A stretch of 64,000 bases of DNA from Sphingopyxis sp. OPL5 (lineage in GTDB: Bacteria > Pseudomonadota > Alphaproteobacteria > Sphingomonadales > Sphingomonadaceae), in contig NZ_CP060725.1 in the NCBI RefSeq assembly GCF_003797775.2, forward strand, positions 1,364,001 through 1,428,000. Reading direction: 5' to 3'. The notes under the pieces were generated by a model. The model did no database searches and was not told the DNA's origin. It saw nothing but the letters and a program-made list of their open reading frames with translations. Shown one piece after another: positions 37,818-42,904 of this stretch (within the stretch, counting starts at the first letter, position 1; every line of letters starts with the position of its first letter). The position numbers and the translations under genes are program-made.

Positions 37818-39469
<1,652 letters not shown>

Positions 39470-39537: not shown

Positions 39538-41049
39538 CTACCACAGATTGATCTTGGCTTTGATCATCAGCCGACCCAGTGCGGGGTCGTCGTTGACGAA
39601 ATCCTTGAGGAAATTATGCTCGACGCCGATCGAGCCCAAGGCGTCGATGCGATAGTTCAGCCCATAACCCGCCGACAGGCCCGCGCCGAATTTATCGGCG
39701 CCGGGATTCATGTCGCCGAATGTCCCCATGCCCTCGGCATAGAGCGACGGCAGCCAGACGCGCTGCGGATCGAGCGACACCCCGACCCCGGCCCCGGCGA
39801 TCTTGATCGGCCCGCCCAACTCGGTCTGGCCGACGCCATAGAGCCGCAATTTATGCCCCAGCATCGAATAAAATTGATGGCGATAGGATAGTTCGAACCC
39901 GAACGAGCCGGCGCCCGCCGCCTTCGGCGCCGTGGTCGCGGCGGTGGCGCTGGTCCCGATTTCCAGCGCATGGAGACGCATCCAGGCATCGAGCCCGTTG
40001 GGGCTTTCCCAGATCAGCCCAAAGCCGCCCCACGATCCCTGCCCCGCGGCGTCGAGCGTCTTGCGGACGAATTCGGTGCAGTTGAACTGGAACAGATTAT
40101 ATTTCGGCTTGGCCGCGCATATCCCCGAAGCATAGCTTTTCGCCGCGGCGAACTGGGCCGCGGTGAGCTCATAGCTTTGCGACGCGGTGATATGGTCGTC
40201 GTGCGCGGTGTCGGGATGATGAACGCAGCCTTCGACGTCGGCAAAGGGCTGGCTGGCATCGAAACCGGTCTGCGGCCAGAACCCATAGGTCCAGTAATTG
40301 CCGGTGTCGTCCTGCAGCCGCAACCAGGCGTGCCCGACGTTGGAGGTGAAGGGGATGAGCAGGAACGGCCCCTCCTTGTCGGCCATGATCGTCAGCGTAT
40401 ATTTGCCGGTCTTGGTCGCGATGCCATCTTCCATCGTGCAGTCCGACGCGCATTGATCGGCGGTGACGCGGCGCACGACGCGGCGCGCCTCGCCGCCCCC
40501 CTGCAGGACATGCGCCAGTTCGTGCGCCATCAGCCGCCGCCCATCGCCGGTCCCCGGCCGATATTCGCCGCGGGCAAAGGCGACGTCGCTGCCCAGCGTG
40601 AAGGCGCGCGCCTGGATCGATTGCGATGCGATGTCGGCGGCGGCCCCGTCATGGACGCGCACGCCCGACAGGTCGGCACCGAAGCGCGGCTCGAAAAACG
40701 CCCGTTCCGATGCCGGGAGCGGCGCCCCCGACCCGAGCGAGGCGATCGCCGATTGCGCCGCAGGGGTCGCGGGCGCCGACCCCGTGGCCGAGCCGCCGCT
40801 GGCCTCGCGCCGCACGACCGGCGCCGACGCCTCGCCGCGCGCTGGCGTCGCCGCGCGCATCACATGATCGGCGGCGGCATCGGCCTGTTGTTCGGCGGGG
40901 TCGTTCGCAGCGCCGATCGTCAGCGGTGCGTGCGACGGTACCCCCATAAGCGAAGCAAGCGGCGAACGCGCGCGCCGCGCCGGCGCCTGTTGCGGCGCGC
41001 CGGTGGCGGGCATAACACGGTTTTTGCGGCGGATCGCGCGTCGGTACAT
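39538..41049 (-). CDS. DUF4157 protein with permuted papain-like domain and beta-rich C-terminus
   Basis: A 503-residue protein of three parts. First, an eCIS-associated DUF4157 domain (about residues 45-185): DPAEQQADAAADHVMR, RAFFEPRFGADLSGVRVHD, ARAFTLGSDVAFA and the zinc-type HELAH at 176-180. Second, a papain-like region with His240 (NVGHAWLRLQ) before Cys324 (FQFNCTEFVRKTLD), the reversed order of permuted NlpC/P60 folds. Third, a beta-rich tail (about 382-503) of alternating strands ending KAKINLW, like an outer-membrane barrel. There is no signal peptide and the basic start MYRRAIRRKNR is unusual. DUF4157 commonly heads toxins carried by extracellular contractile injection systems; no such system is in this window. 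ATG 41049 has GGAAGG upstream. Function is inferred only from domains. Confidence 0.75.
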   Translation of the reverse strand: MYRRAIRRKNRVMPATGAPQQAPARRARSPLASLMGVPSHAPLTIGAANDPAEQQADAAADHVMRAATPARGEASAPVVRREASGGSATGSAPATPAAQSAIASLGSGAPLPASERAFFEPRFGADLSGVRVHDGAAADIASQSIQARAFTLGSDVAFARGEYRPGTGDGRRLMAHELAHVLQGGGEARRVVRRVTADQCASDCTMEDGIATKTGKYTLTIMADKEGPFLLIPFTSNVGHAWLRLQDDTGNYWTYGFWPQTGFDASQPFADVEGCVHHPDTAHDDHITASQSYELTAAQFAAAKSYASGICAAKPKYNLFQFNCTEFVRKTLDAAGQGSWGGFGLIWESPNGLDAWMRLHALEIGTSATAATTAPKAAGAGSFGFELSYRHQFYSMLGHKLRLYGVGQTELGGPIKIAGAGVGVSLDPQRVWLPSLYAEGMGTFGDMNPGADKFGAGLSAGYGLNYRIDALGSIGVEHNFLKDFVNDDPALGRLMIKAKINLW

Positions 41050-41258: not shown

Positions 41259-41801
41259 ATGATACGATCTGGACTGACCACCGCCGGTGCCGCGATCGCG
41301 CTGGCATGCGCGGCGCCCGCCCACGCCAGCGAAAAGGGCTGGGACGATGCCGGCACCGTCGCCAAGAATGCGCTCGTCGTCGCGGCCTTCGGCGTCCCGG
41401 CGGTGCAGGGCGACTGGGAGGGCGTGCTGGAAGCGGGTGGCAGCATCGGCGGCACGATCCTGATCACCCAAGGGTTGAAGGAGGCCTTTCCGTCGCGCCG
41501 CCCCGACGGCAGCGACAACAAGAGCTTCCCGTCGGGCCACACCTCGACCAGCTTCGCCGCCGCGGCGACGCTGCACAACCGCTACGGCTGGGAAGCCGGC
41601 CTGCCCGCCTATCTGGTCGCGTCCTTTGTCGGCCTCAGCCGTGTCGAAGCGAAGAAGCACCGCGTCGGCGACGTGCTCGTCGGCGCCGCGATCGGCACCG
41701 CGACCGGGCATCTGATCACCACCAAGGCGAACGACAACATCCACATCTTCCCCTGGGCCGATACCAAGAGCGCCGGGGTCGATGTGACGCTGCGCTTCTG
41801 A
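41259..41801 (+). CDS. PAP2-family phosphatase, secreted
   Basis: A 180-residue protein with a signal peptide (MIRSGLTTAGAAIALACAAPAHA). All three PAP2 phosphatase motifs follow: KEAFPSRRP (KxxxxxxRP), FPSGHTST (PSGH) and SRVEAKKHRVGDVLVG (SRxxxxxHxxxD). It should dephosphorylate a lipid or isoprenoid phosphate on the periplasmic side. It is divergent from the DUF4157 gene and 59 bases before a polysaccharide deacetylase. Confidence 0.9.
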   Translation: MIRSGLTTAGAAIALACAAPAHASEKGWDDAGTVAKNALVVAAFGVPAVQGDWEGVLEAGGSIGGTILITQGLKEAFPSRRPDGSDNKSFPSGHTSTSFAAAATLHNRYGWEAGLPAYLVASFVGLSRVEAKKHRVGDVLVGAAIGTATGHLITTKANDNIHIFPWADTKSAGVDVTLRF

Positions 41802-41860: not shown

Positions 41861-42904
41861 ATGACGCGGGCTATCATCAGCTTCGACACCGAATTGTCGG
41901 CGGGCCTCTATCAACGGGGCGCCGATGCGCGTGCAAATTTCGAAAGCTCGATCCTCGGCCGTTGCCGCGACGGCGATTATGGCATCCACTTCCAGATGGA
42001 CATGCTCGAACGCCATGGCCTGACCGGGGTCTATTTCGTCGATCCGATGCCGGCGCTCGTCTATGGGCCCGAAATCATCGACAGGATCGTCCAGCCGATC
42101 GTCGCGCGCGGGCACGAGGTTCAGCTTCACATCCACACCGAATGGCTCGAATTCGCGCGCTTCAACCCCATCGGGCGGCTCACCGGACGCAACATCGGCG
42201 ACTTTCCCCTCGGCGCGCAGAAAAAGCTGATCGGCCTGGCCCGCGACATTCTCGTCGGCGCCGGCGCGCCCAAACCCACCGCCTTTCGTGCCGGCAATTT
42301 TGGCGCCAACGACGACACGCTGCGCGCCCTCGCGTCGCTCGGTTTCCGTTTCGACAGCAGCTTCAACGGGGCGTATCGCGATCATGGCTGCGCCATTTCG
42401 CTAGACCCGGGCAACCTCGCGGTCCGCGCGCATGAAGGCATATGCGAAGTCCCGGTCAGCGGGTTGATGGACCGCGTGGGCCGTTTCCGTCCCGCCCAAC
42501 TCTGCGCGATGTCCGAAGAAGAGATGCGCGATGCCCTGGGTCATAGCGCGGCAAGCGGCGCCATCCAGTTCTCGGCCTTCAGCCACAGCTTTGAACTTCT
42601 GAGCCGCGACCGCGCGGTGCCCAACGGACTCGCCATCGCGCGAATGGAGGCGCTGTGCCGCGCCGTCGCCGAGGATCCCCGCGTCACCAGCGGGGGTTTC
42701 GCGACATTGCCCGCCCCGCCCTCGCGCCCGGCGCGGATCGGCATCGCCGCGCCCAAGCCGCTGCGCACCCTGCGCCGTATCATCGAACAGGGCGTCGGCC
42801 ATGTCGTCCACGAGGTCCGCTATGTCCGCGACCTGATCGCGGTGACGGTCAACTCCTCGCGCTGGGGCAAGGTGCTAGGCGGCGTCTTCCTGGCCGTGGC
42901 CTAA
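41861..42904 (+). CDS. Polysaccharide deacetylase-family protein
   Basis: A 347-residue protein with a NodB-like domain: ISFDTELSAGLYQ (the FDTE metal site; the second Asp of the usual TFDD is a Glu), GHEVQLHIHTEWLEF (HxxHTE) and FRAGNFGANDDTLRAL. It should remove acyl groups from a cell-surface glycan, with no signal peptide visible. The C-terminal 30 residues overlap the convergent zapE gene by 30 bases. Neighbours suggest an envelope role with PAP2. Confidence 0.85.
   Translation: MTRAIISFDTELSAGLYQRGADARANFESSILGRCRDGDYGIHFQMDMLERHGLTGVYFVDPMPALVYGPEIIDRIVQPIVARGHEVQLHIHTEWLEFARFNPIGRLTGRNIGDFPLGAQKKLIGLARDILVGAGAPKPTAFRAGNFGANDDTLRALASLGFRFDSSFNGAYRDHGCAISLDPGNLAVRAHEGICEVPVSGLMDRVGRFRPAQLCAMSEEEMRDALGHSAASGAIQFSAFSHSFELLSRDRAVPNGLAIARMEALCRAVAEDPRVTSGGFATLPAPPSRPARIGIAAPKPLRTLRRIIEQGVGHVVHEVRYVRDLIAVTVNSSRWGKVLGGVFLAVA

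Follow-up and report, generated by a model that had tools for sequence, protein, structure and literature searches.

Cgo1 and Cgo2 are cargo proteins of an extracellular contractile injection system (eCIS) and have been shown to fill the AlgoCIS tube, and the growth inhibition exerted by Cgo1 is independent of its metalloprotease motifs (PMC8894135, in the part available). The eCIS cargoes known to date are mostly encoded near their device, and 88% of the eCIS-associated toxins (EATs) lie no more than 10 genes from it (PMC11297309). In the available part of that source, genes that lie beyond the eCIS scaffold are scored as well, which leaves room for distant cargoes in the published record. 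As for permuted NlpC/P60 enzymes, the accessible sections of PMC12994826 describe the YiiX, LRAT, TseH and Tox-Act1 groups, in which the His stands before the Cys and which are tied to lipids; Tox-Act1, an effector of this kind, cleaves phosphatidylglycerol and phosphatidylethanolamine. The window considered here is a stretch of 64,000 nucleotides from Sphingopyxis sp. OPL5 (contig NZ_CP060725.1, C1 below, positions 1,364,001 to 1,428,000), and its subject is a protein of 503 aa encoded on the minus strand at 39538..41049 (C1:1403538-1405049), in which a leader, a DUF4157 domain, a papain-like domain and a C-terminal barrel follow one another, and whose gene is 1.22 Mb away from an eCIS cluster of the same genome.

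The domain make-up, the predicted folds, the device in the genome, the co-occurrence, the slot and the payload exchange, all of them computed, are read here as one picture with a probability of about 0.7: the protein would be an eCIS cargo of the EAT kind, which carries a lipid enzyme and a membrane-seated barrel and is encoded in an exchange slot. That is to say, the disordered leader and DUF4157 would mark the protein for loading into the eCIS tube, which is supposed by analogy with Cgo1 and Cgo2, which are laid out alike and occupy the AlgoCIS tube (PMC8894135). The barrel would then seat the released protein in the target membrane, with the bacterial outer membrane as the simplest case, and place the enzyme beside its lipid, and the slot would exchange cargo genes that keep the same loading half and bear different payloads. 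A more specific form, in which the injector delivers an integral outer-membrane-type barrel holding a TseH-like acyl hydrolase or acyltransferase that works on lipids, with membrane modules that can be swapped, whether barrel, glycine-zipper helices or none, and a remote fixed slot, is tentative and is given somewhat less than an even chance. If true, a membrane-barrel cargo poses the question by what means a hydrophobic barrel stays unfolded inside the tube and is then inserted in the target; if the enzyme acts on lipids, permuted NlpC/P60 toxins would extend from the type VI secretion system (T6SS) to eCIS.

Gene, leader and DUF4157 domain

The start at 41049 is favoured over an upstream in-frame ATG at 41307, which would give a 589-aa alternative, because relatives begin with MYR[RH]AIRRK at that point. 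The same beginning is common to slot cargoes with unlike payloads, as seen in the six leaders compared. The leader (residues 1-42, 40924..41049, minus strand) is mostly predicted to be disordered, as judged from AlphaFold2, where the pLDDT is 37-43 in blocks of residues 1-40, and the N-terminus, MYRRAIRRKNRVMPATGAPQQAP, has no hydrophobic Sec-like stretch when judged by eye only.

A DUF4157 domain with a HELAH motif had been proposed from the letters alone (the sequence-only reading), and the Pfam profile search bears this out: PF13699 (eCIS_core, i.e., DUF4157) matches residues 110-186 (40492..40722, minus strand) with 103.4 bits and an E value of 7.6e-30 against a cut-off of 22, and HELAH is located at residues 176-180 (40510-40524). 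No other Pfam family reaches its own cut-off in the 503-aa protein, and with the single protein as query neither NCBIfam (E up to 1) nor the PDB sequences (E up to 10) gave a match. Conservation was counted in a 72-row alignment that includes the window protein, and only rows with a letter at the column were counted; H176, E177 and H180 of the HExxH are conserved in 71/71 rows, and C200, C204, C275 and C311 in every such row.

In addition, an ExxAD motif in residues 51-64 (40858-40899) is conserved in relatives and stands before HExxH; the M48 protease BepA has the opposite order, with a motif of this kind following HExxH. When the A2 profile was compared with the PDB, seven distinct sequences were matched, five of them BepA, where the match falls in DUF4157 with E 0.06-0.09. 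Between BepA and the HExxH part of the profile the whole-sequence E is 0.06, and the match of the other motif alone is at chance level. By its motif order, DUF4157 is possibly an M48-like domain in permuted form.

The injection system and the slot in the genus

The genome is a single contig of 4.68 Mb, 100% complete, with two eCIS_core genes. Around the second of them, Pfam matches define an eCIS cluster at C1:161241-186789, with a sheath (PF04984 44.1 bits, PF17482 31), a gp19-type tube (PF06841, 133.7 bits), Pvc16_N (105.3 bits) and an AAA+ ATPase (83.6 bits), all over their Pfam cut-offs, as are base_V (72.6 bits) and DUF6519 (139 bits). One Baseplate_J match is at the cut-off (21.1) and another below it (16.1), and the CIS_tube and T4_baseplate matches are below theirs. 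The eCIS_core protein inside the cluster (C1:176115-179639, i.e., L082:16115-19639) has 1174 aa; such cluster proteins vary in length and C-terminus among congeners. The sequence-only reading had found no eCIS gene in the window, which holds for the window only, since the genome-wide search brought the cluster to light; its proposal of an effector of an unlinked device agrees with the eCIS 1.22 Mb away, the co-occurrence with Pvc16 and the slot pattern.

A cargo of a T6SS in place of an eCIS is the least probable of the alternatives and can hardly be maintained. DUF4157 is present in some T6SS effectors too (PMC11297309, in the part available) and TseH is itself a T6SS effector; against this, VipB, the T6SS sheath marker and the only T6SS marker tried, had no match in the complete genome, with E. 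coli positive as the control, and an eCIS cluster is present.

The chromosomal site was followed in a genus sample of 80 genomes, the window's own (G000) included. One border is mdh (38351..39373, minus strand), a backbone gene which flanks the site whether or not a cargo is present and was matched in 77/80 genomes; the other is a PAP2 phosphatase gene (41259..41801, plus strand, PF01569 52.9 bits), backbone where present, and beyond it lies a polysaccharide-deacetylase-like backbone gene (41861..42904, plus strand, PF01522 13.9 bits, below the cut-off of 23.1). The stretch upstream of mdh was read in 76 genomes, and the window's own was included manually; the three genomes without mdh match are absent from the slot table, and G036 was read from a contig with partial mdh. 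In the 67 eCIS_core-negative genomes, PAP2 is found beside the site in 15 and the deacetylase-like gene in 56. These neighbours had earlier been taken to suggest an envelope substrate, and this is rejected, as both are backbone genes that also stand beside empty sites.

eCIS_core is found in 10/80 genomes and Pvc16_N in 8/80, all eight within those ten; the two eCIS_core-positive genomes without a Pvc16_N match are drafts of 320 and 340 contigs. The cargo gene stands between mdh and PAP2 or the deacetylase-like gene in six of the genomes read, with a broken frame in G063, and in the window's own, and G051 keeps a remnant of the cargo N half. Therefore the slot holds a cargo or remnant in 8/10 eCIS_core-positive genomes vs 0/67 negative ones (Fisher p 2e-9, with kinship ignored). 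At the 67 sites without a cargo match, the distance to the next flank gene has a median of 272 bases and is no more than 400 in 64 of them (the others are G058, G075 and G079). As in the window's genome, cargo and device are apart elsewhere in the genus: in G033, G060 and G063 they share a contig at a distance of 0.85-1.6 Mb, and in G029, G041 and G051 they lie on separate ones.

The gaps between the window's cargo gene and its neighbours are 164 and 209 bases; there is no adjacent immunity gene, because neither gap fits a gene, and none was sought elsewhere. Broken cargo frames were seen in G063 (L108) and in G459 (L239); an assembly error is possible in G063, because its PAP2 and sheath also match in two pieces.

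Outside the genus, the same payload (payload A, papain-like domain plus barrel) was found at order level in 3/396 genomes drawn (G000, G041 and G294); the G294 match is weak (E 7.1e-4) and was excluded from the payload genomes, and G041 was treated as identical to G457, the genome of L003. In the family of Veronia it occurs in 6/197 genomes drawn, where Pvc16_N occurs in 18/197. Pvc16 is present in all six of these payload genomes, in 3/3 of the own genus (G000, G041 and G063) and in the one of L004, that is, in 10/10 payload genomes tested. Payload A is linked to the device in two genomes and remote from it in two lineages. In Veronia itself (G459) its gene comes immediately after baseplate and DUF6519 genes; in L004, a record of Ardenticatenaceae, the genes after it are a second DUF4157 gene and CIS_tube-, GPD-, base_V- and Baseplate_J-like ones. 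In the other five Veronia-family carriers (L234-L238), none of the 20 device-region proteins searched was matched within about 10 kb of the payload gene, which is flanked by an ABC transporter gene on one side and a 1056-aa chitinase-like gene (named by eye) on the other. Four of these carriers have Pvc16_N on a different contig, and in G484 it is at a distance of 1.17 Mb. Since remote slots exist both in the genus and in these five genomes, overlooked cargoes should come to light when the slot or the leader is searched for.

That the gene encodes a self-standing surface enzyme, an alternative raised in the sequence-only reading, or else a housekeeping protein, which would serve the producer without any tie to eCIS, is very improbable. 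The gene is indeed far from the device and adjoins metabolic genes, but the 10/10 co-occurrence with Pvc16, the absence of a cargo match at the site in 67/67 eCIS_core-negative congeners, the lack of a Sec-like N-terminus and the adjacency of the payload gene to eCIS genes in two other genomes all argue against it.

Payload exchange, enzyme domain and barrel

The N halves of the six slot cargoes are 51-72% identical in 15/15 pairs, and the C halves match in 2/15 pairs only, G000-G041 (69%) and G033-G034 (68%). The EAT layout of disordered N-terminus, DUF4157 and variable payload is thus found here, with payloads unrelated in 13/15 pairs. Payload A is at the slot in G000, G041 and G063, payload B in G033 and G034, payload C, with a HELCGH stretch, in G029, and payload D in G060. 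The carriers of B and C are sister genomes on the tree (support 75), and therefore the payload changes and the place stays. Two further observations belong here: an open frame of G029 (L112, 8357-9442), whose start is not fixed, continues beyond cargo C in the direction of mdh and is possibly a partner or immunity gene, and the 3.3-kb contig C236 of G034 (L111) carries another eCIS_core cargo with a fifth payload.

The papain-like domain (residues 211-358, 39976..40419, minus strand) is assigned by its predicted fold, which is that of permuted NlpC/P60, TseH-like enzymes. A permuted domain with His240 before Cys324 had been anticipated, and both the order and the family fold, the latter from the model, are present: AlphaFold2 gave a confident fold for residues 217-357 (protein model mean pLDDT 84.6, pTM 0.65), and H240 (codon 40330-40332, minus strand) is conserved in 72/72 rows and C324 (40078-40080, minus strand) in 71/71, as a putative catalytic pair. 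In the fold comparison TseH is at the top, and YiiX, MARTX RID, deSUMOylase and PLAAT3 score lower. Because permuted NlpC/P60 effectors act on lipids (PMC12994826, in the part available), the domain is by analogy read as an acyl-lipid enzyme, which probably attacks lipids. A peptidoglycan peptidase or amidase, or a protein acyltransferase or protease, is a less probable reading: the order of H240 before C324 is that of the lipid-tied groups named above (PMC12994826), and the barrel, or the glycine-zipper-like tails of relatives, suggest work at a membrane.

The barrel (residues 359-503, 39541..39975, minus strand) had been described beforehand as a barrel-like tail, and AlphaFold2 specifies it as eight confident strands at 361-501, of outer-membrane type, with an aromatic last residue. 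In predicted-structure comparison it resembles PagL, the N-terminal domain of OprF, OmpW, OmpA, NspA and PagP, and the last residue is aromatic in 64/65 sequences that reach the final strand. OMP_b-brl is matched in 23/48 family members (best E 1.2e-4). The two faces of a strand, of which either may be the outer one, differ by at least 2 in mean hydropathy in 7/8 strands, with 435-446 as the exception. Of the six matches that a BFVD search gave with an E value of at most 0.001, four bear names of outer-membrane or surface proteins; the query TM is about 0.2. On the model, the most likely role of the tail is to anchor the protein, once released, in a target membrane. A barrel that is soluble (lipocalin- or avidin-like) or serves tube packing, on an eCIS cargo that never inserts into a membrane, is unlikely; the outer-membrane resemblances and the aromatic end favour the membrane-seated barrel, and the contrary results on strand faces given below count on the other side.

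The payload is tied to DUF4157 in nearly all carriers. Residues 205-503 match 79 proteins, of which 76 carry PF13699 and the other three are on contigs under 1.5 kb; the search was limited to 0.55-1.75 times 503 aa, by which a stand-alone module under about 277 aa would be hidden. Residues 362-503 alone match 13 proteins, all with PF13699. An ordinary outer-membrane protein was considered and rejected, as no Sec-like signal is seen and 76/79 payload proteins are fused to eCIS_core. Among eight remoter relatives of the enzyme domain, four end not in a barrel but in glycine-zipper-like hydrophobic tails with 10-12 GxxxG within the last 60 residues. In these sequences the enzyme appears as the constant part and the membrane part as the variable one, and the variable membrane tails together with the barrel favour membrane-located work.

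Contrary results and comparison with known systems

Several results weigh against the eCIS-cargo picture as drawn above. As for the device and the slot, the cargo does not fit the EAT habit of lying within 10 genes of the device, a habit that is common among EATs but does not define them. A second sheath-like gene (C1:3519948-3521609, i.e., L240:7948-9609; 553 aa) stands isolated beside metabolic genes; it is 36% identical over 189 aa to the cluster sheath and may be one more part of a device that is unlinked. In G014 an eCIS is present and the site is empty, and the eCIS_core-positive G073 has no cargo in the 960 bases upstream of mdh to which its reading is limited. What speaks for the picture here is that the device of G014 is divergent, its sheath being 38-43% like that of the window's genome; the sheaths of G029, G033, G041, G051, G060 and G063, all with cargo or remnant, are 75-93% like it, in a comparison that leaves out G034 and G073. 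A tree of mdh and afg1 for 76 genomes explains the filled slots by 3 changes, against a mean of 7.7 after shuffling, and the eCIS_core label by 5, against a mean of 9.5; few independent events therefore stand behind 8/10 vs 0/67. The co-occurrence with eCIS covers genomes only, and carriers known as proteins alone, such as those of Desulfoluna and Poseidonocella, are outside it.

As for the enzyme, the profile search for NlpC/P60-like families did find TseH (PF25218), but at 14.9 bits vs a cut-off of 27, and the domain is called TseH-like in fold only, not TseH, because this score is below the curated cut-off. TseH is matched in 5/48 family members as well, weakly (best E 0.016), and the unrelated family RTE1 outscores it (seven members, best E 0.0015), so matches of such size prove little. 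The A2 profile against the PDB, with E up to 10, gave no TseH chain. Of two assays of TseH, the one with liposomes at pH 8.9 showed activity and the mass-spectrometric one did not (PMC12994826, as far as its available part goes). As for the barrel, OMP_b-brl has no match in the window protein with E up to 1; the entropy contrast between the polar face and the other gives no significant excess of conservation (p 0.22); K416, D446 and K482 mark three columns of the hydrophobic face in which charged residues are frequent; and the remaining four of the eight remoter enzyme relatives have no evident membrane tail.

A literature search for Sphingopyxis with contractile injection systems found nothing; among the papers listed, none combines outer membrane beta-barrels with eCIS, or glycine zippers with eCIS and DUF4157, and a search for unlinked eCIS effectors gave unrelated work; as far as searched, the combination of a TseH-like fold and an outer-membrane-type barrel on a DUF4157 eCIS cargo was not found in print.

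Compared with the known systems, the protein is like the DUF4157 cargoes Cgo1 and Cgo2, as the available parts of PMC8894135, PMC8213781 and PMC11297309 present them, in its disordered N-terminus, central HExxH DUF4157, variable C-terminus and the device in the genome; it is unlike them in its place, a fixed slot 1.22 Mb from the device, and in a payload of TseH-like fold plus barrel. From TseH and Tox-Act1 (PF25218; PMC12994826, in part) it differs in the eCIS delivery that we infer, in the fusion to DUF4157 and a barrel, and in a sequence match below the cut-off, and the lower-scoring folds of YiiX, MARTX RID, deSUMOylase and PLAAT3 belong to other contexts. Finally, unlike PagL, OprF, OmpW, OmpA, NspA and PagP, its barrel is the end of a DUF4157 protein in which no Sec-like signal is seen.
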